DNA of 64,000 nt, taken from Candidatus Tumulicola sp. (lineage in GTDB: Bacteria; Vulcanimicrobiota; Vulcanimicrobiia; Vulcanimicrobiales; Vulcanimicrobiaceae). The stretch spans positions 1,054,001 to 1,118,000 of the forward strand of contig DASXDT010000006.1 in assembly GCA_036490475.1 (NCBI GenBank). The letters run 5' to 3'. Below are positions 7,403-62,424 of the stretch, one piece after another. The number at the start of each line of letters is the position of its first letter. Position 1 is the stretch's first letter. Under the pieces are notes generated by a model. That model worked only from the letters and a program-made list of their open reading frames with translations, searched no databases and had not been told where the DNA came from. The position numbers and the translations under genes were made by a program.

Positions 7403-8157
7403 ATGGAAAACAACGCAGCGGCGTTGCGGCCGGTAATCTCCTCGACCTCGGCGATATCGATGCCGAAGAGTTCCGACAGCGTGCGCGCGACGTACGGCAC
7501 GAACGCCGGTTCGTTACGTTTTCCGCGCATCGGCACCGGTGCCAGATACGGTGCATCGGTCTCGAGCACGACCGCGTCGAGTCCGACGCGTACCACTGCA
7601 TCCCGCAACGGCTGCGCGTTCTTAAACGTCAAGACGCCCCCGATTCCGAGTTTTACATCGAACTCGCGCACCAGCATTTCGGCCTGCTCGGCATCGCCCG
7701 TGAAACAATGCACGACGCCGCGAAGACCCGGAAATTCATCGCGTAGCACGCCGAGAAAATCGTCGAACGCGTCGCGTTGATGAAAGATGAGCGGCAGTTT
7801 CCGCTCGCGCGCGAGCCCGATCTGCTCGCGCAGCACGCGAATCTGATCCTCGCGCGGACTGTGGTTGTAATAGTAATCGAGTCCGGTTTCGCCGATGGCG
7901 ACGACGCGTTCGTCACGCGCGAACTCGTTCAAGGTTTGCAAATAGTCGGCTGCTACATCCTCGGCTTCGTGCGGATGCACGCCGGCGCTGGCGAAAAGAT
8001 CGTACTCACGCGCGGTTGCGAGCGCGCGCCGGCTGTCTTCGACATCGCAACCTACCGTGATCATGCGGTCGACGCCGAGTTCTCTCGCGTGCGCGATTGC
8101 AACCGCGCGATCGTCGTCGAAGCGCTTGTCGTGCAGATGACAATGCGTGTCGATCAT
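7399..8157 (-). CDS. tatD: TatD family metal-dependent deoxyribonuclease
   Basis: Cytoplasmic TIM-barrel hydrolase of the TatD/YcfH family, with 3'-5' DNA exonuclease or repair roles in known members. It is 252 residues. The metal site starts at MIDTHCHLHDKRF; further ligands are seen in IGETGLDYYYNH, FHQRDAFDDF, VVHCFTGD and VLETDAPYLAP. The frame is open 71 codons further upstream inside metG, but the ATG at 8157 overlaps the metG stop as ATGA and starts exactly at the family N-terminus. Despite its name it is not part of Tat export. It lies in the rsmI-metG-tatD order common to many bacteria. Confidence 0.95.
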   Translation of the reverse strand: MIDTHCHLHDKRFDDDRAVAIAHARELGVDRMITVGCDVEDSRRALATAREYDLFASAGVHPHEAEDVAADYLQTLNEFARDERVVAIGETGLDYYYNHSPREDQIRVLREQIGLARERKLPLIFHQRDAFDDFLGVLRDEFPGLRGVVHCFTGDAEQAEMLVREFDVKLGIGGVLTFKNAQPLRDAVVRVGLDAVVLETDAPYLAPVPMRGKRNEPAFVPYVARTLSELFGIDIAEVEEITGRNAAALFSI

Positions 8158-9695
8158 CTGTCGGACAGTTCTTCGGGTTTGCTCGTGTCGATGCGCGGAA
8201 AGAGTGGCGCACCCCCCGAAACGCGGGCTCCGCCGGTCGATCCCCAAGCGCCCAGCGACGACCAATCGCCGTCGATCCGTCCGGTCGCGCCCAGGCGTTG
8301 CCACATCTCCTTGGACTTGGATGGCATGAACGGATGCAACAGCATCGCCAGACGCCGCAAGCCTTCCCACAAGTCGAACAGCAACGCGTCCAGCTCCTCG
8401 TTCCGGCCCTCTTTAAACATCAGCCAAGGTTTGCCGTCGTCGACCGATCGGTTCAATGCGGTAACCAATTCCCACGCGGATTCAAGTGCTTCGCGGAAGC
8501 GCAAGTCCAGGACGTGCGTTGCGAAGCTCGCCGGGAGCGCGGCGAAGCGTTCTTGCAACGGATTCACAACGTCCGGCCGCGCCGGCACCACGCTATCGCG
8601 ATATTTTTGCAGCATCGATGCAGTGCGATGCAGCAGGTTTCCAAGGTCGTTCCCGAGATCGCTGTTGTGGCGTTGCGCGATCTTGTCTTCCGAATATGAA
8701 AAATCGCTGCCGAAGGGCGCTTCGCGCAATAAGAAGTAGCGCAGCGAATCGGCGCCAAACGTCTCGACCAATGCGAACGGATCCACCGCATTGCCCAGGC
8801 TTTTGCCCATCTTTTGACCGTCTACCGTGATCCAGCCATGGGCGAATACGAGATCGGGCGCCACCTCGCCGATCGACCACAGCAACGCCGGCCAGATCAA
8901 GGTGTGAAAGCGCGCGATTTCTTTTCCGACCAGTTGCACCGACGCCGGCCAGTAGGTGGAGAACATCGTTTCATCGGTCGACCATCCGATGGCCGAAATG
9001 TAGTTGAGCAATGCGTCGAACCAGACGTAGATCACTCCGTCGTCGCCGCCGCCCGGAACGGGAATCCCCCAAGCTAAATTCTTGCGCGTGATCGACAGAT
9101 CGTCGAGGCCCTCTTCGAGCAGCGCCATCATCTCGTTGTAGACGCTGCGCGGACGCACCCAATCCGGATGATCGCGGAAGTGCGCTAGCAGGCGGTCGCG
9201 GTAATTCGAAAGTCGAAAAAACCAATCTTCTTCGGAAATCCGCGTGACTTCGCGGCCGCACGTGGGGCAACGCCCGTCGCGCAACTTCGATTCAGGCCAA
9301 AATGTCTCGTCTGAGACGCAATACCAGCCTTCATACGTCCCGAGGTAGACATCGCCGTTGGCGCGCATGCGTTCGAACACGGCTTGTACGACCCGTTCGT
9401 GACGCGGTTGGGTGGTGCGAATAAAATCGTCGTACTCAACGTCGTACGCGGCGAACAGCGCCTGCCAGCGCGGCACCAATTCGTCGCACCATTCTTGCGG
9501 CGTTTTGCCGGCTTGGGCAGCGGCATCGGCGACCTTTTGCCCGTGTTCGTCGGTGCCGGTGAGAAAACGAGCCGGGCCGCGAGTGCGAGCCATCCGCGCT
9601 AGCACGTCGGCGACGATCGTCGTGTATGCGTGGCCGATATGCGGATTGCCGCTAATATAATAAATCGGCGTGGTGACGTAAAAGGCGCGGCTCAT
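8154..9695 (-). CDS. metG: Methionyl-tRNA synthetase
   Basis: Class I synthetase that charges tRNA-Met, 513 residues. The HIGH motif is intact (NPHIGHAYTT, residues about 18-27). The KMSKS loop reads KMGKS (QKMGKSLGN, about residue 300), a variant found in other MetG proteins. A zinc-knuckle-like region has the CPTCG pair near residue 145. The anticodon-binding helical domain follows. The C-terminal tRNA-binding EMAP-like domain is absent, so this is the short form. The start overlaps rsmI as ATGA and the stop overlaps tatD as ATGA, so three genes are translationally linked. Confidence 0.96.
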   Translation of the reverse strand: MSRAFYVTTPIYYISGNPHIGHAYTTIVADVLARMARTRGPARFLTGTDEHGQKVADAAAQAGKTPQEWCDELVPRWQALFAAYDVEYDDFIRTTQPRHERVVQAVFERMRANGDVYLGTYEGWYCVSDETFWPESKLRDGRCPTCGREVTRISEEDWFFRLSNYRDRLLAHFRDHPDWVRPRSVYNEMMALLEEGLDDLSITRKNLAWGIPVPGGGDDGVIYVWFDALLNYISAIGWSTDETMFSTYWPASVQLVGKEIARFHTLIWPALLWSIGEVAPDLVFAHGWITVDGQKMGKSLGNAVDPFALVETFGADSLRYFLLREAPFGSDFSYSEDKIAQRHNSDLGNDLGNLLHRTASMLQKYRDSVVPARPDVVNPLQERFAALPASFATHVLDLRFREALESAWELVTALNRSVDDGKPWLMFKEGRNEELDALLFDLWEGLRRLAMLLHPFMPSKSKEMWQRLGATGRIDGDWSSLGAWGSTGGARVSGGAPLFPRIDTSKPEELSDR

Positions 9696-26273: not shown

Positions 26274-27626
26274 CTACTCGTAGTCGACCTCGTGCAGCGA
26301 CGGTCGCTCGTGCACGAATCGTCTGATCGGATATTCGGACGCGATCGGCTTGAACGGAATCGGCTTCTGATTGAAATCGAAGCAGTCCAGCATACTCGCG
26401 GCACGCCGATCGGTCGTTCCCAGGCTCTGCAGTCCGTCGATGTTTTCGACGAACTGCAAGATGCTGCCGAATTCGTATTGCGTGTGTGAGATGTACCCCG
26501 GTCGCGCATACGGCGAAACGACCAGCATCGGCACGCGGAATCCGAGACCTTGTAAGTCGATCTGCTTCGGGGCGACGTGATCGAAGAAACCGCCCCAGTC
26601 GTCCCAGGTAATGATGATCGCCGTCGACTTCCACAGTTGCGGATTCTCGCCGATCGAATTAACGACCGAGGCGACCCACGACGGTCCGGTGTTGGAATTC
26701 GATAGCGGATGATCGGAGTTCTTGTAATCCGGGATGACCCACGAGACTGCGGGCAGATTGCCGTTCTTCGCATCGGTGAGGACCGTGGTCTCGGGCGTGA
26801 TCACGTTCGCCTTCCATTCCGGCCCGTAGCGAACGGCGTGAATCGCATCGAACGCCGTCCACAACCACCCGCCGCCGTGTTGCTCGAACGTCGGCGCATA
26901 GTATTTCCACGAGACGCCGGCGGCGTCGAGCGTGTCGCGCATCGTCTTGTACGTCAGACACGGAAACGGCCCTTGGTTCACGAGAATTTCTCGCGACTGC
27001 GTGAGCAGCGACGTCGCGGTACCGGACGGTGCGTCACACCCCCACGGGGTACTCGAGGGAAGGTTGACGAGCACTTGGCTCGAGTTGATCGCGGTATCGC
27101 CGGCGATGAGATCTTGATGCGCGACGAAGCTGCCGCTACTTTGCGTTTCGAACATCTCGTCGGAAAGCGTGAACTCTTTGGCCATCGTCCAATACGGCGC
27201 GATATTCGTGGGATCCACGTACTGATAGGGCCAGTTGCCGGCCGGTTGGCCATTTGCAAAATCGATGGAGCCGAAGCCGTTCATCTTACCGTTGTTGTAT
27301 TCGGTTTGAAACGTTTCGAAGTAATGACGGATGTCGACCGGATCCTTGAGCGGATACTTCATCAACTTGACGATTCCGTGTTTGCCTTTGCCGCTGGTCG
27401 CACCGTTAGCACCCGGAAACGTCGCGAACAAATTGTCGAAGCTACGATTTTCTTGAACGATGATGACGATGTGTTTGATGTACGGATTGGGAGAGGATAT
27501 CGGCCCGGTGGTCGGCTGCACGGGCGGGCTGCTCGAGCTTCCCGAGCCTCCGCCCGAACATGCGCTTGCCAGGATTGCTAAAGCGAATATCCACGAACGT
27601 TTCATGAAAACGCCATACGTATGCAT
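26274..27626 (-). CDS. Phosphoesterase-family lipoprotein (PLC/acid phosphatase-like), tandem copy B
   Basis: Secreted PF04185-type phosphoesterase, about 450 residues. It has a lipobox (LAILASAC) followed by a Gly/Ser-rich linker. The family start [20 protein letters not shown] is near residue 55 (quoted in part: [10 protein letters not shown]); SDHPL and [13 protein letters not shown] are near residues 300 and 345. Members cleave phosphate esters, including phosphatidylcholine. The ATG at 27626 has AGGGA about 10 nt upstream; the ATG at 27605 would give a shorter leader without a ribosome site. It lies 38 bp after copy A and is very similar to it, so this is a tandem duplication. Confidence 0.9.
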
Positions 27627-27664
27627 GCGGTGTGATTCCCTTCGAGGTACTTTCGATACACGGA

Positions 27665-29011
27665 CTATTCGGAATCGACTTCGATCGACGAGGGGCGCTC
27701 GTTGATGAACGTCGACATACTCGTTTTGGCTTGAATCGGCTTGAACTTGAGGGGCGTTTGGCTGAAGTCGAAGCAATCCATCATGCTGGTGGATCGGACG
27801 TCGGTCGTGTTTAAGCTCGGTAAGCCAAACGTTTGCTCGACGAACTTGATGATGCTTCCGAATTCGTACTGCGTGTGTGAAATGTGATGGGGGCGCGCGT
27901 ACGGCGAAACGACGATCATCGGAACGCGGAAGCCTAGGCCTTGCAAATCGATTTGCTTGGGGGCTACGTGATCGTAGAATCCACCCCAGTCGTCCCATGT
28001 AATCAGGATCGCCGTCGACTTCCAGAGGTCGGGATTTTCACCGATTGCGTTGACGACTTGTGCCACCCAAGACGGTCCGGTGCTCGATGGCGAGCCGGGG
28101 TGGTCGGAGTTGAGGTAATCGGGAATAACCCACGATACTGCCGGCAAATCGCCGTTCCGAGCATCCGTCAACACCCGCGTTTCGGGCGAAATCACGTTGG
28201 ATTTCCATTCGGGGCCGTATCGAACGGCGTGAATCGCGTCGAACGCCGTCCATATCCAGCCGCGGCTCTTGGCGGTAAACGGCGGCGCGTAGTATTTCCA
28301 CGATACGTTCGAACCGTCGAGCGTATCGCGTAGCGTCTTATACGTCAGACACGGAAATGGCCCCTGATTCGATAAGAAAACCCGCGGCTTCTTGAGCAGC
28401 GAAGTGAGCGTACCTTGCGGTGAATCGCAACCCCACGGTTCGTGTGTCGGGATATTCGCCAGTACCTCGTCGGAATTGATCGCCGTGTCACCGGCGATGA
28501 GATCTTGATGTGCCACGAAGCTGCCGCTGCTCTGCGTTTCGAACATTTCATCGGACAGGGTATATTGCTTGGCCATCGACCAATAGGGTTGGATATCGTT
28601 GGGATCGACGTACTGATACGGAAAGCTTCCCGCCGGCGACCCGTCGTTGTACCCGATGTTTCCGAATCCATCCATCGCACCGTTGTCGTATTCGGTTATG
28701 AACGTCTGCCAAATATGGTGAATGTCGAGCGGATCTTCAAGCGGGTATTTGGCGAGCCGGACGGTGCCCTTCTTCGTCTTTCCGCTGGTCGCTCCGTCGG
28801 CGCCCGGGAATGTTGCGAAGAGGTTGTCGAGGCTGCGATTTTCTTGAACGATAATGACGACGTGTTTGATGAGTGGATTCGGCGTTGGGGCCGGGCCGGT
28901 CGTCGGTCCCGATATTGGCGGCGAGCCCGAGCTCGACGATCCGCCTCCACCCGAGCATCCGGCGGCGACAACAAGCAAGAGCGCGAAAGCCAGCATTCTC
29001 CTATCGAGCAT
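27665..29011 (-). CDS. Phosphoesterase-family lipoprotein, tandem copy A
   Basis: Closely related to the next gene, 448 residues. The lipobox is VVAAGCSG, followed by a Gly/Ser linker. It shares with copy B long stretches such as [43 protein letters not shown] and [10 protein letters not shown]. The metal and catalytic region begins at [10 protein letters not shown]. The ATG at 29011 has GAGG 11 nt upstream; ATG 28996 is the alternative. It is divergent from the PEP mutase-family gene and probably leads a two-gene transcript. Both copies keep all family motifs that I can see, so both may be active. Confidence 0.9.
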
Positions 29012-51493: not shown

Positions 51494-51921
51494 GCCGGTT
51501 CGCGCACCACGATCGAACGTGGGCCATCGCCTGCGCCGTCGATCACGATTTCGAAGCGCCGCTCCGGAATCATCGAGGCGCCACGTTCCCACCATTCGAC
51601 GAACGCGATACTGTCGGCCACATCGAACGCGATCTCCGCGCCGAGTTCGAATAATTCGGCGGAATTCTCGATCCGATAAAAATCGAGATGGTCGATCGGC
51701 GGCGTCCCCGGATAGCGGTTCCAGATCGTAAACGTCGGGCTGGTGACCGTTTCCTCACCGTGCAACTCCGCCACGGCCGCTCGCACGAATGCGGTCTTGC
51801 CGGCACCCAGCGGACCGCTCAGTGCGACGACGTCGCCCGGGCGCAACGAGGCCGCGAAACGGCGAGCGAATGCTTGCAGATCGGCTTCCGAGGCGGCGAC
51901 GAAGACGATATCCGAGGTCAT
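51490..51921 (-). CDS. tsaE: tRNA threonylcarbamoyladenosine ATPase TsaE
   Basis: P-loop ATPase that cycles the TsaB-TsaD complex, 143 residues. Walker A is LSGPLGAGKTAFVRA near residue 36, SPTFTIWNRY near 63 and HLDFYRIENSAE near 80 are family segments, and FVEWWERG near 110 is the terminal motif. The ATG at 51921 starts it. It is first in the tsaE-tsaB-rimI run and divergent from the phosphoesterase gene. Confidence 0.94.
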   Translation of the reverse strand: MTSDIVFVAASEADLQAFARRFAASLRPGDVVALSGPLGAGKTAFVRAAVAELHGEETVTSPTFTIWNRYPGTPPIDHLDFYRIENSAELFELGAEIAFDVADSIAFVEWWERGASMIPERRFEIVIDGAGDGPRSIVVREPA

Positions 51922-51978
51922 CAAACTGCGCGACTACGCGTCGAGGAACGGAACAATCCTGCGGGAAGTGTGCCAAAC

Positions 51979-53394
51979 ATGCTGGGAATTTTTTCGCGCA
52001 TCCGTCTGTGGCCGCTGGTCGCGGCCGCCGGTTTGTTGCTGAGCGCGTGCGGTGGCGGAGGGGGCGGCGGCAGTTCGAGCGTGCCCAATCCGACGGCACA
52101 GCCCACGACCAATCCGGCGCAACCGATCCAACACGTTATTATCATGATTCAGGAAAATCGCACCCCGGACCAGCTTTTTCAGGCGTTTCCGGGCGCCGAC
52201 ACGCAATCGTACGGATACACGCATACCGGTGAGAAAGTCAATCTGCACAAGGTTGCGCTGCGATCGCCGTTCACGCCGAGCAATTATTACATCGACTTCA
52301 AAGACGATTGCAACAGCAAAACCGGCCCTCCGGGAAAAGATTGCCAGATGAATGGCTTCGATCTACCGCCGATCGGAGGCCATCCTCCGGGAACGCAGAC
52401 GTATCAGTTCGTTAACCCGGCCGACATCGAGCCGTATTGGTCGATCGCCAAACAATACGTGCTGGGCGATCGCATGTTCCAAACGCAAGGCAGCGGAAGT
52501 TTTACGGCGCACCAAGATCTGATCCGCGGCGGCACCGCCATCAACGACTCGCAGTCGGAAATCGACTTTCCTTGGAATAAGCAGAACGCTTTCGGTCACT
52601 GGGGATGCGACGATCTCCAGGGATCGACGACCGCGCTGATCACCAATAAACTGCAATATTTGGGTGCGTCGCCGCACCCCGGCTATACGCCGCCGGGGCC
52701 GTTTCCGTGTTTTAAGTATACGACGCTGCGCGATCTGCTCGATGCGAAATCGATCGGCTGGAAATACTACGTGCCGGAGTTTACTACCGATCTCGGCGGC
52801 TCGCTGTGGAACGCGTTCGACGCGATTCACGACGTCCGCTACGGATCGGAGTGGGGCACCAACGTGCAGTGGCCGCAAACCAACGTGCTCAAGGATATCG
52901 CCAACGGACAACTGGCATCGGTCAGTTGGGTGATCCCCGATTTTGTCAACTCCGATCACCCGGGAGCATCGTCCGACACGGGGCCGTCGTGGGTGGCCTC
53001 GGTCGTCAACGCCGTCGGCAACAGCCAATACTGGAAGTCGACGGCGATCGTCGTCGTCTGGGACGACTGGGGCGGATTTTACGATCACGTCCCGCCGCCG
53101 TTCGTCGACGCACAAGGCGGCTTGGGCTTCCGCGTGCCGTTACTGGTGGTGTCACCGTACGCCAAAGCCGGCTACGTTTCGCACACGCAATACGAGTTCG
53201 GCAGCATCGTTCGTTTCGTCGAGGACAACTGGAATTTAGGTCGCCTCAATACGACCGACACGCGAGCCGCCAACATTCTGGACTGCTTCGATTTCAAGCA
53301 GCAGCCGCGTGCGTTTTCGACCATCCAAGCCAAGTATTCCCGCGCGTTTTTCTTGAAGCAAAAGCCCTCGTATCACTGGGTCGACAGCAACTAA
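51979..53394 (+). CDS. Phosphoesterase-family lipoprotein, dispersed copy C
   Basis: Third PF04185-type lipoprotein, 471 residues. The lipobox is LLLSACGG with a Gly run. IQENRTPDQLFQAFPGAD is near residue 55, TAHQDLIRGGTAIN near 180, [20 protein letters not shown] near 330 (in part), and [14 protein letters not shown] near 360. The catalytic region differs from copies A and B (TPDQL in place of SFDNL/SLDNL), and an extra segment with Cys residues (DDCNSKTGPPGKDC) is inserted near 110. It is distant from the tandem pair, so this is an older duplication or a different function. Confidence 0.9.
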   Translation: MLGIFSRIRLWPLVAAAGLLLSACGGGGGGGSSSVPNPTAQPTTNPAQPIQHVIIMIQENRTPDQLFQAFPGADTQSYGYTHTGEKVNLHKVALRSPFTPSNYYIDFKDDCNSKTGPPGKDCQMNGFDLPPIGGHPPGTQTYQFVNPADIEPYWSIAKQYVLGDRMFQTQGSGSFTAHQDLIRGGTAINDSQSEIDFPWNKQNAFGHWGCDDLQGSTTALITNKLQYLGASPHPGYTPPGPFPCFKYTTLRDLLDAKSIGWKYYVPEFTTDLGGSLWNAFDAIHDVRYGSEWGTNVQWPQTNVLKDIANGQLASVSWVIPDFVNSDHPGASSDTGPSWVASVVNAVGNSQYWKSTAIVVVWDDWGGFYDHVPPPFVDAQGGLGFRVPLLVVSPYAKAGYVSHTQYEFGSIVRFVEDNWNLGRLNTTDTRAANILDCFDFKQQPRAFSTIQAKYSRAFFLKQKPSYHWVDSN

Positions 53395-53448: not shown

Positions 53449-55953
53449 TTGAATAACGATATTATCCGCCAGGTCAACGTCGAAGATGAAATGCGGGAGA
53501 GCTATCTCTCGTATGCCATGTCCGTCATCGCTTCGCGCGCGCTGCCGGACGTTCGCGACGGCCTAAAACCAGTTCAGCGGCGCATCCTGTACGCGATGCG
53601 CGAGATGGGATTCGACCCGTCCAAGCAGCACCGTAAGTGTGCCGGTATCATCGGCGAAGTGCTCAAGAGCTATCACCCGCATGGTGACAGTTCGGTGTAC
53701 GACGCATTGGTGCGGCTGGCGCAAGACTTTACCATGCGCTACAAGTTGGTCGACGGACACGGCAACTTCGGTTCGATCGACCCCGATCCGCCGGCCGCCT
53801 ACCGGTATACCGAAGCGCGTCTCGCCCGCACGGCGCTGGAGATGCTCGGCGATATCGATAAAGAAACCGTCGGCTTCGTTCCGAATTTCGACAATCAGGG
53901 CGTCGAGCCGACCGTGCTTCCGGGCCGCATGCCGCAGTTGCTGGTCAATGGATCGTCGGGCATCGCCGTCGGAATGGCGACCAACATTCCGCCGCACAAT
54001 CTCACCGAAATTTCCAACGCGATCGTCGCCCTGATCGACGAGCCGGACATCACCGACGACGCGTTGATCGATCACGTGAGCGGTCCCGACTTTCCGACCG
54101 GCGGGACCATTCTCGGCATCGAGGCGATCCGCGAGGCGTATCGTACCGGTCGCGGTTCGATTGCCATTCGCGGCAAGGCCGAAATCGTCGAAGAGAACGG
54201 CCGCTACAAGATCGTCATCACCGAGATTCCGTATCAGGTCTATAAGTCGCGCATCGTCGAAGCCATCGCCGAAGCGCATTCGGAAAAGCGGATTCAAGGC
54301 ATCGCGCGGCTCGACGATGAGTCGAACCGCAAGGGTATGCGCGTCGTCGTCGAGTTGCAACGATCGGCGACGCCAAAAGTCGTGCTTAACCAGCTCTTCA
54401 AGCACACGCCGCTGCAGGCTAGCTTCGGCTTTAATATGCTGGCGCTGGTGCCGGTCGGCCCGCCGCGTGCCGACGGATCGGTCGCGCTCGAACCCCAGGT
54501 GCTGTCGCTCAAACAAATGCTGACGCACTTCATCGACCACCGCAAAATCGTCGTCGTGCGGCGCACGCGGTACGATTTGCGCAAGGCCGAAGAGCGCGCG
54601 CATCTGCTCGAAGGCTACCGCATCGCGCTCGACAACATCGACGAAGTCATCGAGATCGTTCGCGGCAGCCAGACGACCGACGAGGCCAAGAAACGGTTAT
54701 CGGCGCGGTTCGAACTAAGCGACGTGCAGGCGCAGGCGATCGTCGACATGCGTTTGCGGACGTTGGTCGGGCTCGAACGCAAGAAAATCGAGGACGAATA
54801 CGCAGAACTCATAAAGACGATCGCAGAATTGACCGATATCCTCAACAGTCCGCGACGCATAGCCGAGATTATCAAAGGCGAAACGCTCGAACTCAAGCGG
54901 CGTTTCGGCGACGAGCGGCGGACCAGCATCGAAGCCGCCGACAACGAAATTTCGATGGAACAGCTGATTCCGAACGTCGAGGTCGTCGTTACCTACACCG
55001 TGGGCGGCTACATCAAACGCGTTAGCCTCGATACGTTCCGGACGCAGAATCGCGGCGGTCGCGGCGTTACCGGCATTTCCAACCTCAAGCGCGAGGACGT
55101 CGTCCGCAATTTCTTCGTGACGAAGACGCACGACCACGTCCTGTTTTTCAGCAACAAGGGCCGAGTGTATCGTTTACGCGGGTACGAAATTCCGGACACG
55201 ACGCGCCAAGCGCGCGGAACCGCGTTGGTCAACCTGCTGACGTTGCCGCCGGGCGAAGAAGTGTCGGCCGTTTTCCCGACCGACACGTTTGCCGGCGAGC
55301 AATACCTCGTCATGATCACGCGTCGCGGCGTCATCAAAAAGACCAAGCTCGCGGAGTTCGCCAACGTCCGGCGCAACGGTCTCAATGCGATCAATCTCGA
55401 TGAAGACGACGAATTGCTGGCCGTCAATCTGTCGGACGGCTCGCACGACATCATTCTCGCATCGACGATCGGCATGGCGGTTCATTTCAACGAGCGTAAC
55501 GTCCGCCCGATGGGCCGCAACGCACGCGGCGTCAAAGCGATGACCTTGGATCCCGGCGACTCGATCGTCGCGATGGATATCGTCGAAGATAACCGGCGCG
55601 AGGTGCTGCTCGTCACGACGCTGGCGTTCGGCAAGCGCACGCCGATCGACGATTACCGGCACACGTCGCGCGGCGGCAAGGGTGTCAAAGCGTTCGCGCG
55701 GCAACGCGACGACGTCGGCAAGGTCATCGATCAGATCCTCGTCGCGCCCGACGATGAGGTGCTCATGATCACCAGCGGAAATCAAGTCATCCGTCTCAAG
55801 GTGAACGAGATCCGCAAGACCGGCCGCGACGCAAAGGGCGTGCGACTGCAACGTCTGGGCGAAGGCGAAGAGGTCGTCGCGATCACGAACTTGGGCAAAC
55901 AGGTCGCACAGCTTACCGACATCACCGGCGAGCCGCAGCAGCCCGAGTTGTAG
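53449..55953 (+). CDS. gyrA: DNA gyrase subunit A
   Basis: Breakage-reunion subunit of gyrase, 834 residues. The start region [17 protein letters not shown] and [21 protein letters not shown] (in part) is canonical. The active-site Tyr is about residue 120 in [10 protein letters not shown]. The GyrA box is seen as QNRGGRG near residue 525, so this is gyrase and not ParC, and the six beta-pinwheel repeats follow. The TTG at 53449 gives a normal N-terminal length; AAGG lies only 3 nt upstream. gyrB is not in the window. Confidence 0.96.
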
Positions 55954-56007: not shown

Positions 56008-56073
56008 ATGAACGTTGGAAACCTCCGAGCCGCGGAGGCGATTATAGAGCTTGGAGGTATATCCAGAAACACA

Positions 56074-56400
56074 ATGAGTGCATTAGCCGACGTAACTCAG
56101 GCGAACTTCGACGCCGAGGTATTACAAAACGCGCAGCCGGTGCTGGTCGACTTTTGGGCGCCCTGGTGCGGCCCGTGCCGCATGCTGAGCCCGGTCGTCG
56201 AAAAGGTCGCAGCCGCGAACGAGAGCAAGGCGAAATTCGTCAAGCTGAACACCGACGACAACCCCAACATCGCGGGGCAATATCAAGTTTCGGGGATTCC
56301 GTGCTTGATTCTGTTCAAGGGTGGACAGGCCGTGGATCGTATCGTCGGTTACGTGCCCGAGGGCACGATCTCGTCGATGCTCGCGCGCCACGTCGCTTAA
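56074..56400 (+). CDS. trxA: Thioredoxin
   Basis: Cytoplasmic disulfide reductase of 108 residues, the normal length. The redox site is WCGPC with Cys32 and Cys35, the cis-Pro is in VSGIPCLILF, and VDFWAPW precedes the site. The frame is open to 56008, but the ATG at 56074 gives the normal start; GGAGG lies 16 nt upstream, rather far. It follows gyrA after 120 bp that holds only a hairpin. Confidence 0.96.
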   Translation: MSALADVTQANFDAEVLQNAQPVLVDFWAPWCGPCRMLSPVVEKVAAANESKAKFVKLNTDDNPNIAGQYQVSGIPCLILFKGGQAVDRIVGYVPEGTISSMLARHVA

Positions 56401-56403
56401 CCG

Positions 56404-57960
56404 TTAGGCAGGTTCGCTAAACCAGCCCGACGGTTTAACGTCGAGGTTGATGTTGATCTGTTTGACCTCGGTGTAGGCGTCGTACCCGTAGGTTCCCAGT
56501 TCGCTTCCGAACCCAGAACGTTTCATACCGCCCCACGGTGCTTCGTTGTACGTGGGGTGGTATGTGTTTATCCAGGTAATTCCGGCGCGGAACCCGCGCA
56601 CCATCCTGTGCGCTTTGGCAGCATCTTGCGTGAACACCGCCGCGGCCAAGCCGTAGTCGGTATCGTTGGCGACGCGCAGCGCTTCGTCTTCACCAACGAA
56701 CGTTTGCACCACCAGAACCGGGCCGAAAATTTCCTCGCGCACCACGCGCATTGCGGGTCGCGTGTCGGTGAAGATCGTCGGCGCGATATAATTTCCGCCC
56801 GCCAGCGCGCCGCCTAAACGTTCGCCGCCACACAGTAGGCGCGCGCCTTCGTCGACACCCGTCGCGATGTAGCGTTCGACGCGTTCGCGTTGCAGCGCCG
56901 AAACCAACGGTCCCATCTCGGTTTGCGGATCGAAACCGTCGCCGACCCGAATTCGCATCGCCTTGCCGGCCAGACGCTCGAGGAATCGTTCCGCGATGCT
57001 GCGTTCGAGCACCAGTCGCGATCCGGCCGAGCAGACTTGGCCGGCGTTCATGAAAATTCCGAACAGTGCGTAGTCGACCGCCGTCTCGAAGTCGGCGTCG
57101 GCGAACACGACGTTAGGCGATTTACCGCCCAGCTCCAGGGAGACTTTCGTGAGATTCGGTCCGGCCGCCGCAAGAATTTGCTTGGCGGTATGGGTGCCGC
57201 CGGTGAAGGCAATTTTGTCGACCAGCGTGCTCGCTGCAATTGCAGCGCCCACGACGGGACCGGCGCCGGGCAAGATGTTCACGACCCCCGGCGGAACGCC
57301 GCACGCCTCAAAGATCGCCGCCAACCGGATCGCCGACAGCGGCGTATTCTCCGCCGGCTTGAGTACGCAGACGTTGCCGGCCGCTAGCGCCGGCGCGAGC
57401 TTCCAGACCGCCATGAGCAGCGGATAGTTCCATGGCACGATCTGACCGCACACGCCGATCGGTTGGCGGATGGTAAAGCTGGCCGTTTGACCGGGAACGT
57501 CGAAGGTTTGCCCGTGTGGTTTGGTCGTGAGTCCGGCGTAGTAGCGAAAACAATCCGCCGCGTCGGCGGCATCCATCAGCGTTTCGCGCAGCGGTTTACC
57601 GCCGTCGAGCGTGTCGATTCGCGCAAATTCGTCGCGCGCGGCGTCGATCGCATCGGCGATCCGGAAGAGCACTGCGGCGCGTTCGGTTGCAGTGGCGCGC
57701 GGCCAAGGTCCGTCGTCGAACGCGCGGCGCGCGGCGGTCAGAGCGGCTTCGACGTCCGCCGGCCCGGCTTCGGCGACGACCGCAATCGTTTCGCCGGTCG
57801 ATGGATCGATCGAGTTGCGAATGGCGCCGTCGAGCGCGGTGCAAAAACGTCCGTCGAGGTACAACGGCACGTCGCCGTCGAGGCGTGGGACGGAGTGAAG
57901 GACGTCGGCCGCCTTGGGACGCGGCGTGCCGGCGAGGTCAACGGTGTGCATGGTCTGCAA
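56404..57960 (-). CDS. NAD(P)-dependent aldehyde dehydrogenase
   Basis: ALDH superfamily enzyme of 518 residues that oxidises an aldehyde to an acid. The cofactor-binding GFTGGTHTAKQIL-type loop reads AFTGGTHTAKQI, the Glu is in LELGGKSPNVVF, and the catalytic Cys is in NAGQVCSAGSR near residue 305. PWNYPLLMAVWKLAPAL and GPVLVVQTF are also clear. Betaine aldehyde or gamma-aminobutyraldehyde branches are possible. GGAG lies 7 nt before TTG 57960; ATG 57951 is the other start. It ends 4 bp from the convergent trxA. Confidence 0.92.
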   Translation of the reverse strand: MQTMHTVDLAGTPRPKAADVLHSVPRLDGDVPLYLDGRFCTALDGAIRNSIDPSTGETIAVVAEAGPADVEAALTAARRAFDDGPWPRATATERAAVLFRIADAIDAARDEFARIDTLDGGKPLRETLMDAADAADCFRYYAGLTTKPHGQTFDVPGQTASFTIRQPIGVCGQIVPWNYPLLMAVWKLAPALAAGNVCVLKPAENTPLSAIRLAAIFEACGVPPGVVNILPGAGPVVGAAIAASTLVDKIAFTGGTHTAKQILAAAGPNLTKVSLELGGKSPNVVFADADFETAVDYALFGIFMNAGQVCSAGSRLVLERSIAERFLERLAGKAMRIRVGDGFDPQTEMGPLVSALQRERVERYIATGVDEGARLLCGGERLGGALAGGNYIAPTIFTDTRPAMRVVREEIFGPVLVVQTFVGEDEALRVANDTDYGLAAAVFTQDAAKAHRMVRGFRAGITWINTYHPTYNEAPWGGMKRSGFGSELGTYGYDAYTEVKQININLDVKPSGWFSEPA

Positions 57961-58001
57961 CAAGCTTCTCCACGCCCGGCGGCCGCCCCGCGAGACTGCG
58001 C

Positions 58002-58670
58002 TTGAGCCACGTCCCCCCGTCCGAAGAAGGCGCGCTCGACGGGCGGATCATCGAGCTGATCGAGTCGGCGCATCGCGCCGAGCCCTGGGCGTTGGGCTCG
58101 ACCCTCCTCGCGCTCGCTCGCCGGCTCGATCTTCCCGAGCCGCCGTTGCTCGATCGATTGCGCACGTTGGTCGAGGACGGCCGGCTGGTTCGGAGATTCG
58201 GCTATTTCGCGCTGTCCGGCCACACCGTCGTTCTGTCGCCCGAACAGCAAGCGTTTTTCGCAGCGCTGCTGCCGGAAGGCGACATGCCGGCACCGATAGC
58301 GTATGCGTCGCTCGCGAGTGACGTGCGGAGCAGCGGTGTCGCCGGGATCGCCAAAGCATTCGACACGTTGCTCGCGACCGGAGCGCTGATACGCGTCGGA
58401 AACGATTGTTACCGGGGCGCGCAGATTGCCGCGATGCGGCGGCAGATCGAGGCGCACTTTCGTGGGAACGCGCGGCTGACGGTTGCGGAGTTCCGCGACT
58501 TCGCACGAACGACGCGGAAGCATGCGGTGCCGCTGCTCGAGTGGTTCGACGATCGCGGTGTGACGTCGCGTGACGGAGTCGACCGCGTGCGCGGCGACGC
58601 GTCGTTAGTGGTGAACGAGCGTAGCGATTCCCACGATGAGCTCCAACGCAATCAACACGATCACGATTAG
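58002..58670 (+). CDS. Orphan SelB C-terminal winged-helix module
   Basis: The roughly 222 residues match only the C-terminal winged-helix domains of the selenocysteine elongation factor SelB. The last domain has TVAEFRDFARTTRKHAVPLLE followed by WFDDRGVTSR (in part), the RNA-binding WH4 pattern. A WH pair with LDLPEPPLLDRLRTLVEDG and a further unit with YASLASDVRSSGVAGI precede it. The GTPase half is absent: upstream DNA is the antisense of the aldehyde dehydrogenase gene, and the frame has only a weak TTG at 58002. It is probably a remnant or a domain-only RNA-binding protein. The end overlaps the next convergent gene by 66 bp. Confidence 0.6.
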   Translation: MSHVPPSEEGALDGRIIELIESAHRAEPWALGSTLLALARRLDLPEPPLLDRLRTLVEDGRLVRRFGYFALSGHTVVLSPEQQAFFAALLPEGDMPAPIAYASLASDVRSSGVAGIAKAFDTLLATGALIRVGNDCYRGAQIAAMRRQIEAHFRGNARLTVAEFRDFARTTRKHAVPLLEWFDDRGVTSRDGVDRVRGDASLVVNERSDSHDELQRNQHDHD

Positions 58671-59696
58671 CTCGAGAAACTCGTCGCGACGGCTGCGCGC
58701 GTCGTCGGTGAAGAAGCCGTAGATTTCGCCGATGCTGGCCAGTTTGCGATCGATCTGCCGTTGCCAGTCGGCCAGTCCGAGCCGTTGCGCCGCGGTCCGA
58801 TAGATTCGCGCGTCGTACGCATCGCCAACTACTTTCAACGCATTGCTGGAGCGGTCGATCAACTCCAAGACGTCGACGATCAAGTACCGCAACGAGTCGG
58901 CGCGATCGGCTTCGCGGCGTCCCAGCAGCGACCGTCCCAAACGGCGCGACCCGAGATCGTAAATTCGATCGAGTTCGCGATCGAGCAATGCGTCGTAGGT
59001 GCGCAACTCGAGCAGCTGCGAATTGGCGAATTCGAGAATATCTTCGACGGCGCGTGCGTTGTCGGGCCGGTCGAAGATAAACGACGTATCCCACTGCACG
59101 ACCGTCAAGTCGTCTTCGAAGTACGAAAAGCGGGTTCGCAGCGCTTCGACGCGCTCGTCTTCGGCCAGGCGCCGGCGTTCGCCTAACAGCAATCCGGCCA
59201 GTACGTTCGGATCGCGTTCGAGTAACTCGGTTGCGCCGGTGCTTTCGGCAAACCGGTGCACGCTGACGATAAAATAGTCTTCGACCAGCGGCACGTGCCG
59301 GTCGTCCAGATCGTCGGCATGTTCGTCGCAGAATCGCTGCATCAACTCGGATGCTAGGGCGAGCGCCGAGCCGTCGGTGCGAACCCGATCCGCGAGTGCG
59401 ACGAGTTCCGCCCACGGGCCGGCCGCATCGAACGTAAGGCGCAGCGAGACCACGCCGTATTCGTAGGCTTTCAGCCGAAGCTGACAATCGCCGCCGGCCG
59501 CGCGCCCCTCGCCGAGCTCGACGATCGCCGGGGGCACGACGAACTGCAAGTAGCCGGGAAAAACGCGACCGTCGCGCGGCGCGCCCGCCCCGGCCGGAAC
59601 GTGGGCGACGCGACCGTCGAGCGCGGCCAAATCGATCGTATCGGATACGTCGAACAGATAATAGGCGTTGACCGTTCCGGCGGTGACGTCGAGCAT
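58605..59696 (-). CDS. RMD1/DUF155-family membrane protein
   Basis: The 363-residue protein has the plan of Rmd1/RMND1-family proteins: an N-terminal domain with a AYEYGVVSLRLTFD-like strand set, an EDILEFANSQLLELRTYD helical segment near residue 200, and a single C-terminal helix (EFLELIVIVLIALELIVG, near residue 345) preceded by a basic hinge. In eukaryotes the family acts in mitochondrial translation and meiosis; bacterial roles are not known. AAGG lies 9 nt before the ATG. It is divergent from clpB and convergent with the SelB tail gene. Confidence 0.75.
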   Translation of the reverse strand: MLDVTAGTVNAYYLFDVSDTIDLAALDGRVAHVPAGAGAPRDGRVFPGYLQFVVPPAIVELGEGRAAGGDCQLRLKAYEYGVVSLRLTFDAAGPWAELVALADRVRTDGSALALASELMQRFCDEHADDLDDRHVPLVEDYFIVSVHRFAESTGATELLERDPNVLAGLLLGERRRLAEDERVEALRTRFSYFEDDLTVVQWDTSFIFDRPDNARAVEDILEFANSQLLELRTYDALLDRELDRIYDLGSRRLGRSLLGRREADRADSLRYLIVDVLELIDRSSNALKVVGDAYDARIYRTAAQRLGLADWQRQIDRKLASIGEIYGFFTDDARSRRDEFLELIVIVLIALELIVGIATLVHH

Positions 59697-59728
59697 TCTG
59701 CGCGGCCTTAGGCTCGGGAGCGGGAACG

Positions 59729-59757
59729 CCTTCCGGAAGGGCCTGCGACGCTTGAAA
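59729..59757. promoter_or_regulatory. Palindrome and heat-type -35 box in the clpB upstream region
   Basis: CCTTCCGGAAGG is a perfect 12-bp palindrome at 59729-59740. CTTGAAA at 59751-59757 matches the sigma32 -35 consensus, and TTGAAA is close to the sigma70 box. No matching -10 (CCCCAT or TATAAT-like) follows at the right distance, and no CIRCE element is present, so the promoter is not proven. Confidence 0.35.
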
Positions 59758-59796
59758 TAGGAACTGTGATGTGGCTCGTGCGGTTATGGAGAAAAG

Positions 59797-62424
59797 ATGA
59801 ACGTTGAAAAAATGACCGAGCGCGTTAGCGAAGCGCTCAATGCGGCATATTCGCGTGCGTTGGCCGAACATAACACGCAAACCACGCCCGAACACATGCT
59901 GGCGGCCATGCTCGAGCAAGAACGCGGCATCGCGGGAGACATTCTTGCGAAAGCCGGCGCGAACGTGCCGGCGCTCACCCAGCGCGTCGATGAGGCGATC
60001 GGACGTTTACCGCGTTTGAGCGGATCGAATGCGGATAGCGCACAAGTGACGCTATCGCCCGAGCTCGCGCGCGTGATGAATACTGCCGAACACGATGCGA
60101 AATCGTTGCAGGACGACTACACGTCGGTCGAACACGTGCTGCTCGCCATGTCCGAATCTCCGGGCGAGATCGGTCGTTTGCTTCGCGATTCAGGCGTTAC
60201 GCGCGACTCGTTATTGCAAGCGTTGCGCGACGTACGCGGCAATCAACGCGTGACCACCAAAGATCCCGAAGGAACGTATAAGTCGCTGGAGCGCTACGGC
60301 CGCGACCTGACGCTCGAAGCCGAGCGCGGCAAGCTGGACCCGGTGATCGGTCGCGATGAAGAAATTCGCCGCGTCGTACAAGTGCTATCGCGGCGCACCA
60401 AAAACAACCCGGTGCTGATCGGCGAACCTGGCGTCGGCAAAACCGCTATTGTCGAAGGTTTAGCGCAGCGTATCGTTCGTGGGGACGTTCCCGAGGGCTT
60501 AAAAAACAAGCGCGTGGTGTCGCTCGACATGGGCGCGCTGATTGCCGGCGCGAAATATCGCGGCGAGTTCGAAGAGCGCTTGAAAGCCGTGCTCAAAGAC
60601 GTCGCCAACTCCGAAGGCCAGATCGTGCTGTTCATCGACGAGCTGCATACGGTCGTCGGTGCCGGCAAGACCGAAGGCTCGATGGACGCCGGCAACTTGC
60701 TCAAGCCGATGCTCGCGCGCGGCGAGTTGCACATGATCGGCGCCACTACCCTCGACGAGTACCGCAAGTATATCGAAAAGGACGCGGCGTTGGAGCGCCG
60801 TTTCCAACCGATCTTCGTCGGTGAGCCTACCGTGGAAGACACGATTTCGATCCTGCGCGGCCTCAACGAGAAGTACGAAGCGCACCACGGCGTTCGCATC
60901 AAAGACGCAGCGCTCGTGGCAGCCGCCACGATGAGCAATCGCTATATCAGCGATCGCTTCTTACCGGATAAGGCGATCGACCTGGTCGATGAGTCTGCCG
61001 CTAAGCTGCGCACCGAAATCGATTCGATGCCGCAAGAGCTCGACGAGGTTTCTCGTCGCGTCATGCAGCTCGAAATCGAACGCGAAGCGCTTCGTAAAGA
61101 AACCGATAACGCCAGCGTTCGGCGCCTGGAACAACTCGAACGGGAGTTAGCCGAGCTGCGCGAGCGCCAGGCCAAGTTGCGTCTGCAATGGGATGCCGAA
61201 AAGAGTGCATCGATGAAGCTGCGCGGCTTGCGCGAGCGTATCGAGCAGACCAAAGTGCAGATCGAACAGGCCGAACGGCAGTACGATCTGAACCGCGCGG
61301 CCGAGCTGCGCTACGGGCAACTGACGCAACTCGAGCGCGAGCTGAACGAGGCCGAAACGTCTGCTGCTACGCAAAACGGCGCGCGGCTCTCGAAAGAAGA
61401 AGTCGACGAAGACGATATCGCCGAGGTGATCGCACGTTGGACCGGCATTCCGGTGGCGAAACTGCTGGAAGGCGAACGTCAGAAGCTGCTGCATCTCGAA
61501 GACGAGTTGCACAAGCGCGTTATCGGCCAAAACGAAGCGGTAGACGCGGTGGCCGAGGCGGTGTTGCGCAATCGTTCCGGGCTCGCCGATCCCAACCGGC
61601 CGATCGGATCGTTCATTTTCCTCGGACCGACCGGCGTCGGCAAGACCGAGTTGGCGCGAGCGCTAGCCGAGTACTTATTCGACGACGAACGCGCGCTGAT
61701 TCGTATCGACATGTCGGAGTATCAGGAAAAGCACACGGTTGCGCGCCTGATCGGAGCGCCGCCCGGCTACGTCGGCTACGACGAAGGCGGCCAACTGACC
61801 GAAGCCATTCGACGCCGCCCGTACAGCGTGGTGCTGTTCGATGAAATCGAAAAAGCGCACCCGGACGTATTTAACATTTTCTTGCAGATCTTGGACGACG
61901 GGCGTTTGACCGACGGCCAAGGCCGAACCGTCGACTTCAAGAACACGATCGTGATCATGACGTCGAACATCGGCAGCCATCGAATCCTCGAACATCGCGG
62001 AGCGTTCGGCGGCGCCGACTACGCCATCATGCGCGCGACCGTGCTGGACGAGTTACGACAGCACTTCCGCCCCGAGTTCCTCAACCGCGTCGACGAGATC
62101 ATCGTGTTCCACGCGCTCTCGCAAGAACAACTGGAACACATCGTCGATATCCAACTGCAACGATTGCGCAAACGTCTTGCCGAGCGGCGTATCACGCTGG
62201 AGCTCGACGAGGCGGCAAAACGTCACATCGTCAACGTTGGATACGATGCGAACTATGGCGCGCGTCCGCTCAAACGAACGATTCAAAAGGAGCTAGAAAC
62301 GCCGCTGGGCCGAAAAATTCTGGGAGGGGAGATCAACGATGGCGACACCGTCGAGGTTGGATTCGACGACGTCCGCGGCGAGCTGACGTTTACGGTCGCA
62401 TCGAAAGAAACGGTGCCGGCATAA
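59797..62424 (+). CDS. clpB: Disaggregase ClpB
   Basis: Hexameric AAA+ chaperone that frees proteins from aggregates with DnaK, 875 residues. It has an N-domain (1-145, with [11 protein letters not shown]), first Walker [14 protein letters not shown] at about residue 208, first Walker [14 protein letters not shown], a coiled-coil M-domain (about 400-530), second Walker [14 protein letters not shown] at about 610 and second Walker [18 protein letters not shown] lies 5 nt before the ATG. Its stop overlaps the galM start as TAATG. Confidence 0.97.

Follow-up and report, generated by a model that had tools for sequence, protein, structure and literature searches.

The 64,000-nucleotide stretch of the Candidatus Tumulicola sp. 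contig DASXDT010000006.1 analysed here (the window) carries a truncated selB gene between gyrA and clpB. The features of this region are listed below, with G012 denoting a genome of the same genus that possesses a full-length selB:

53449-55953, plus strand: gyrA, a syntenic anchor (profile match, synteny)
56008-56400, plus strand: thioredoxin gene (trx; profile match), which precedes selA in G012, G008 and G042
56401-56403: site of selA in G012, with 3 bases left between the stops of the thioredoxin and aldehyde dehydrogenase genes
56404-57963, minus strand: aldehyde dehydrogenase (ALDH, PF00171; profile match), divergent neighbour of the tail
57964-58025: deletion junction joining the ALDH leader to winged helix 2 (comparison with G012)
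58002-58670, plus strand: SelB tail frame, 222 amino acids and a TAG stop, with a TTG start and no Shine-Dalgarno-like sequence ahead of it
58023-58214, plus strand: winged helix 2 (WH2), residues 8-71 (model secondary structure, alignment)
58239-58415, plus strand: winged helix 3 (WH3), residues 80-138 (model secondary structure)
58416-58592, plus strand: winged helix 4 (WH4), residues 139-197 (profile, model, fold match), with SelB-wing_3 at residues 152-196
58593-58670, plus strand: run-on past the ancestral SelB end (alignment; low pLDDT)
58605-59696, minus strand: U363, an uncharacterised 363-codon gene that is convergent to selB in G012 too
59797-62424, plus strand: clpB, the syntenic anchor on the other side (profile match, synteny)

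The names of gyrA, clpB, ALDH and trx (window copies) and of selA, the PucR-type regulator and the amine oxidase discussed below are based on profiles, whereas the aminotransferase, receptor and galM names are our reading. U363 matched no Pfam or NCBIfam family; it adjoins selB in several genera. Upstream of gyrA lies a 568-codon gene (51688-53394, plus strand) that reads as phosphoesterase-like. Relatives of it are present on the minus strand at 26283-27941 and 27668-28888, and the overlap of the matches within 26283-28888 suggests a tandem or frame-shifted copy.

The initial annotation of this DNA had reported a SelB WH4 pattern without the GTPase half, directly behind the head of a divergent aldehyde dehydrogenase. 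Both observations were borne out. The translation of the plus-strand frame 58002-58670 contains RKHAVPLLEWFDDRGVTSR, and it is matched by the Pfam profile SelB-wing_3 (PF09107) with 51.8 bits (E 6e-14), above the curated cut-off of 23.2 bits, so the assignment to the SelB wing domains stands. The NCBIfam selB profile, which has 581 positions, matches the frame at positions 537-578 only, and a search with the tail sequence found the SelB chains 5lzb, 1lva, 1wsu, 2ply and 2pjp in the PDB. Neither inspection of the frame nor the profile search revealed a GTPase (EF-Tu-like domains 1-3) in it, and the alignment showed that WH1 of SelB is missing too. Recognisable homology begins at about 58023, making WH2 the first domain kept, and profile and model agree on a series of C-terminal winged helices ending in SelB-wing_3. 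The ALDH gene does read away from the tail, starting at 57963.

An AlphaFold2 model of the tail (36-sequence alignment; mean pLDDT 91) showed three winged-helix units and a weakly predicted end. Its top fold match was 2uwm, which is SelB WH2-WH4 with SECIS RNA (E 3e-10, TM 0.49); further matches were 2ply and 1lva (TM 0.68 on the query), and a viral fold search gave weak matches only. WH4 is the main SECIS-binding wing in known SelB proteins. Two near-invariant WH4 residues are substituted in the window tail, and the WH4 fold is kept in the model. If translated, the tail domains would probably still fold, and the model together with the 2uwm match indicates that the product might bind a SECIS-like hairpin.

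An open frame of 623 codons occupies the opposite strand at 58048-59919. With such long frames occurring at this G+C content, an open tail frame alone is little evidence, and judged from the sequence it is the SelB homology, not the openness of the frame, that makes the tail real. The frame overlaps the convergent U363, whose stop lies at 58605, by 66 bases. Since only 5 bases separate the end of U363 from the selB stop in G012, the last 25 or so residues of the window tail are run-on; the native selB stop has been lost from the frame.

The gene order in G012 is gyrA, trx, selA, ALDH (reverse), two aminotransferases (reverse), a PucR-type regulator, a 1234-codon receptor-like protein, an amine oxidase, selB, U363 (reverse), a 1076-codon gene, clpB and galM. 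The window has gyrA, trx, ALDH, the selB tail, U363, clpB and galM. Between aligned blocks, the selA interval measures 1409 bases in G012 and 32 in the window, the interval between ALDH and selB 11,382 bases in G012 and 449 in the window, and the interval before clpB 3062 and 81 bases. The 11,382-base block of G012 holds the two aminotransferases, the PucR-type regulator, the receptor-like protein, the amine oxidase and the selB head, and ALDH stands between selA and this block. The window (59697-59796) also lacks the 1076-codon gene that both G012 and G009 have between U363 and clpB. G009 belongs to another genus and has the order PucR, receptor, amine oxidase, selB, U363, 1076-codon gene, clpB. 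Since this order is common to G009 and G012 it is the older one, and the window represents the derived state. An insertion of ALDH into selB was considered and ruled out, ALDH being an old neighbour that was brought near by deletion. Compared with the intact orthologue that G012, of the same genus, has at this locus, the tail is thus truncated.

The window genome (designated G000) comprises 3.32 Mb in 7 contigs and is 96% complete; the contig of the window measures 1.75 Mb. A genome-wide profile search gave no match for selA. Nine matches to the selB profile TIGR00475 were obtained, none over the cut-off, and the last of the nine was the tail itself. A complete selB elsewhere in the genome, which according to the initial annotation would have marked the tail as a dead fragment if accompanied by disrupted frames in relatives, can be rejected: the best match, a 404-codon frame, scored 195.9 bits against a cut-off of 242.25 bits, and from its length and a nearby 704-codon frame we read it as EF-Tu. 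The best selD match in G000 reached 69 bits (cut-off 125), and the best tRNA-Sec match 43.4 bits (gathering score 47), the latter threshold being soft because many genomes of the family give a weak second match of 43-50 bits, while clear genes score 63-78. The tail therefore keeps company with no selA, selD or tRNA-Sec above cut-off in this genome. By comparison, G012 has selA (510 bits), selD (379 bits), tRNA-Sec (72.2 bits) and a 619-codon selB; selD scores 370-379 bits in G012, G009, G030, G008 and G042, and selA is present in 82 of the 99 genomes of the family searched. The lineage of G000 appears, from its gene content, to have lost the selenocysteine trait. Lacking the GTPase and tRNA-binding part of SelB, SelA, and SelD or tRNA-Sec above cut-off, it is not expected to insert selenocysteine. 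Decay after selenocysteine loss had been one of two explanations offered for the tail by the initial annotation, and the gene order of G012, together with the missing selA and full selB, shows this to be decay by deletion. That the window segment is a beheaded selB at its ancestral locus after selenocysteine loss is, on this comparative evidence, as good as shown.

In three of the genomes with selD (G093:C28, G042:C4 and G009:C12) the match continues across a single in-frame TGA, which raises the possibility that the SelD of these genomes is a selenoprotein. G093, which is 83% complete, carries a second selD without the TGA; neither selA nor an above-cut-off SelB-wing_3 was found in it.

A search of the whole class with SelB-wing_3 matched 98 of 117 genomes. 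The check for partial loss covered the matches in frames of less than 400 codons, of which there were eight. Three of these are internal truncations, each with an open frame: the window tail and two further tails in G031 and G094, each from a different genus. Four lie at contig ends (G040 and G026, judged from sequence; G116 and G106, judged from coordinates only). In the eighth, G039, a selB head stands beside the SelB-wing_3 part in another frame. At this locus (L075:1-2420) two frames divide selB between them (residues 1-327 in one, 329-609 in the other) and selA is fragmented, which reflects either an error of sequencing or a further sel locus in decay. Among 49 loci obtained by scanning GTDB contigs, there were internal truncations only at L084 (JAFAMK010000192.1) and L102 (PLDY01000012.1), which apparently are the tails of G094 and G031 and hence not additional ones; L090, L108 and L122 each lie at the end of a contig, in L092 the gene is divided between two frames, and the remaining 43 loci reach from near SelB residue 1. 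Among the genomes searched there is one genome per truncation junction.

Like the window genome, G031 and G094 have no selA and a selD score below cut-off; tRNA-Sec in G031 reaches 46.2 bits, below the gathering score of 47. Where G008 and G042 have trx-selA-selB, these two genomes have trx directly followed by the tail. The trx stop of G031 is at L073:7820 and its tail begins at about 7870; in G094 the trx stop is at L077:7619 and the tail occupies 7681-8301, the junction alignment placing the trx block up to about 7606 and the selB block from about 7703. In a phylogenetic tree the G094 tail is nested among SelBs from its genus (identity of 69-77% to seven members among the matches listed), which marks it as a separate truncation, and the truncation in G000 is separate as well because the selB of G012, from the same genus, is intact. 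Horizontal spread of one tail gene is accordingly ruled out for G094. For G000, vertical descent is favoured by the gene order common to it and G012, even though the tree places the tail among long branches (G013, G047) and not with G012. The start of each of the three tails falls into the WH1/WH2 linker, within the same stretch of 30 or so codons, and the room left by the flanking genes is about 27 codons at most. For three uniform breakpoints the probability of falling within 30 codons is 0.008, and within 15 codons 0.002, both calculated post hoc.

The comparison with G012 shows how the window tail arose, the number and order of the deletion events being proposed here. In the G000 lineage, which has lost the selenocysteine trait, selA was deleted between trx and ALDH, probably in one event. 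Probably in another, some 11 kb were lost; this stretch begins just upstream of the ALDH start and takes in five genes as well as about 425 codons from the head of selB, so that WH2-WH3-WH4 remain. It is rather probable, in our judgement, that the remaining frame is a relic without function, which would persist because the loss is recent, and we regard this as more likely than its retention as a functional protein. The locus supports such a reading: it is collinear with G012 except for the selA block, the five genes with the selB head, and the 1076-codon gene. So do the signals around the frame. The TTG at 58002 is the only nearby start, it has no Shine-Dalgarno-like sequence, it lies 38 bases from the divergent start of ALDH, and the native stop is gone. 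By contrast, the TTG start of ALDH is preceded by GGAG ending four bases upstream. A promoter scan of the region found 0 sites, with 0 expected by chance, and so weighs on neither side. In genome G022 and the eight genomes of genus g18, selA is missing and no tail scores over the cut-off, which also favours a relic.

Sequence divergence of the window tail points in the same direction, if less clearly. Its SelB-wing_3 score in the class-wide search (54.4 bits) is the lowest of the 98 matched genomes, the next being 54.9. Among 42 sequences compared, 35 sites are near-invariant (identical in at least 95% of full SelBs), and the window tail fails to keep 4 of them (3 substitutions and 1 alignment gap). 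This excess is only one above G029 and G013, which fail to keep 3 each, and it vanishes when the gap is left out; G094 departs at 1 site, G031 at none, and the others at 3 at most. Of the 24 strictly invariant sites, one is changed in the window tail (rank 10 of 42). Also at odds with a relic, no stop codon interrupts the three domains in this frame, and its codon-position G+C pattern is still gene-like. However, 11-19% of simulated frames were still open at 0.2 substitutions per site, so the bound that the open frame sets on neutral age is weak. In U363, too, G000 is a faster lineage than G012 (identities: G000-G012 67%, G000-G009 62%, G012-G009 71%), so part of the divergence of the tail is lineage-wide, and the tree, as stated, does not join the tail to G012.

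Purifying selection, for which the initial annotation had suggested a dN/dS test, was assessed with a branch-omega codon model on trees set by hand, G000 being placed beside G012 by synteny, against the computed tree. The dN/dS of the tail branch was 0.146 in G000 (background 0.136), 0.102 in G031 (background 0.107) and 0.147 in G094 (background 0.081), and omega = 1 was rejected in each case (LRT 19.5, 31.2 and 7.8). None of the tails differed significantly from background omega (LRT 0.01, 0.01 and 1.72 for G000, G031 and G094). Approximate 95% upper limits from likelihood profiles were 0.38 for G000, 0.21 for G031 and 0.43 for G094. A five-taxon set gave omega 0.171 for G000, 0.085 for G012 and 0.154 for the background. 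Ten full-length SelB control branches ranged from 0.044 to 0.293, the highest value, that of G030, exceeding that of the window tail. The relaxation expected of a relic is therefore not seen. Each tail branch, however, includes time before the truncation (in G000 perhaps the greater part of the branch) and may have inherited its low omega, which means that a low dN/dS indicates recent loss or constraint, not constraint alone.

The main alternative, to which we give a clearly smaller though real chance, is that selection kept WH2-WH4 as a free hairpin-RNA-binding protein after selenocysteine loss, the GTPase and WH1 being shed. Such a protein could for example be an mRNA regulator that inherited the binding of SelB to a SECIS-like hairpin, which would imply expression and an RNA target. 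The coincidence of the breakpoints speaks for it: in three genera, three truncations fall into the same linker and keep three C-terminal winged helices (as modelled for the window tail), and for G000 and G094 relatives of the same genus have the full selB. That even the two other, independent remnants stop at the same domain border is unexpected under random decay (on the post hoc probabilities of 0.002-0.008). The rejection of omega = 1 on all three branches and the intact strictly invariant sites of G031 and G094 (0 of 24 changed in each) are in keeping with it, and so is the tail of G094, an ATG-started frame of 206 amino acids which begins 61 bases after trx and runs in the old trx-selA-selB direction. 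A precedent is known from Helicobacter. According to PMC4607533, H. pylori SelA lacking the N-terminal tRNA-binding domain has been kept by purifying selection although the Sel system was lost, and in H. pylori and H. acinonychis, as here, one shortened gene of the selenocysteine machinery outlasts the lost pathway. The cases differ in that selection on the Helicobacter SelA is, in that same text, visible in many strains, whereas the gene concerned here is SelB, each junction is represented by one genome and the catalytic half is gone.

Start signals speak against retention as a protein. In addition to the poor start in the window, the ATG of the G094 tail has no Shine-Dalgarno sequence ahead of it, and in G031 the stretch from the trx stop to WH2 contains none of the codons ATG, GTG and TTG. 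The only nearby in-frame ATG of G031 lies inside trx, which is read in another frame (L073:7699, with GGAG six bases ahead), and a start there would add about 57 foreign residues. A conserved internal start yielding WH2-WH4 as a natural second product of selB was unsupported in full-length relatives: among 38 of 39 examined (one has no anchor motif), 7 have no start among the 45 codons that precede the WH2 motif, and in the rest the starts are scattered. The tail-less, selA-less genomes G022 and g18 and the possibility that low dN/dS predates truncation count against retention as well. The domain-only RNA-binding protein that the initial annotation had envisaged thus gains from the recurrence of the same piece in G031 and G094 and from an omega not above background, and suffers from the poor starts. 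We would be more hesitant still about the general form of the idea, namely that WH2-WH4 is repeatedly released on selenocysteine loss as a free RNA-binding protein with a second, selenium-independent job.

It seems improbable that the tails are relics whose common border merely reflects DNA in the WH1/WH2 linker at which deletions tend to stop, in which case the border would be uninformative about function. The DNA around the G094 junction is G+C-rich with many short chance matches, and the assembly of G040, a genome with selA and tRNA-Sec, also breaks near the linker (its contig ends 21 bases before SelB residue 413); however, the left ends differ, being the ALDH leader in G000 and the end of trx in G031 and G094, and no microhomology was established at the G094 junction. 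Least probable is an assembly or binning artefact that dropped an existing selB head, since, although G000, G031 and G094 are all draft assemblies (that of G094 about 74% complete in about 460 contigs), the window lies on a megabase-scale contig of a nearly complete genome with continuous gene order on both sides, and selA, selD and tRNA-Sec are absent or below cut-off throughout G000 too.

We therefore return to the relic as the preferred reading. The loss of the selenocysteine trait as such is well known. What the locus adds is that the route of loss is visible, with selA cut out cleanly, selB beheaded in place and an intact sister genome as reference. The tail resembles the crystallised C-terminal fragments of SelB (2uwm, 2ply, 1lva) in having the same three winged helices, and it lies at the selB locus of G012; it differs from them in being encoded alone, without GTPase and WH1, in a genome without a detectable selenocysteine pathway. 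In the literature searched, with subscription papers and preprints outside its scope, no earlier report of such SelB tails was found. Genomes with an orphan SelD, as described in PMC5029168 and PMC1794560, likewise contain an isolated component of the pathway, selD in those cases and a selB tail here.

These tails bear on how the selenocysteine trait is recognised in genomes. SelB is reported in PMC5029168 as perfectly consistent with the trait. Searching with nothing but the SelB C-terminus would upset this agreement; in the present case such a search would call a genome without the pathway selenocysteine-positive. What the three genomes have kept is either a fossil that formed more than once or an RNA-binding protein that was salvaged. 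If it is true that selection kept WH2-WH4 three times, the RNA-binding arm of SelB has a use of its own.
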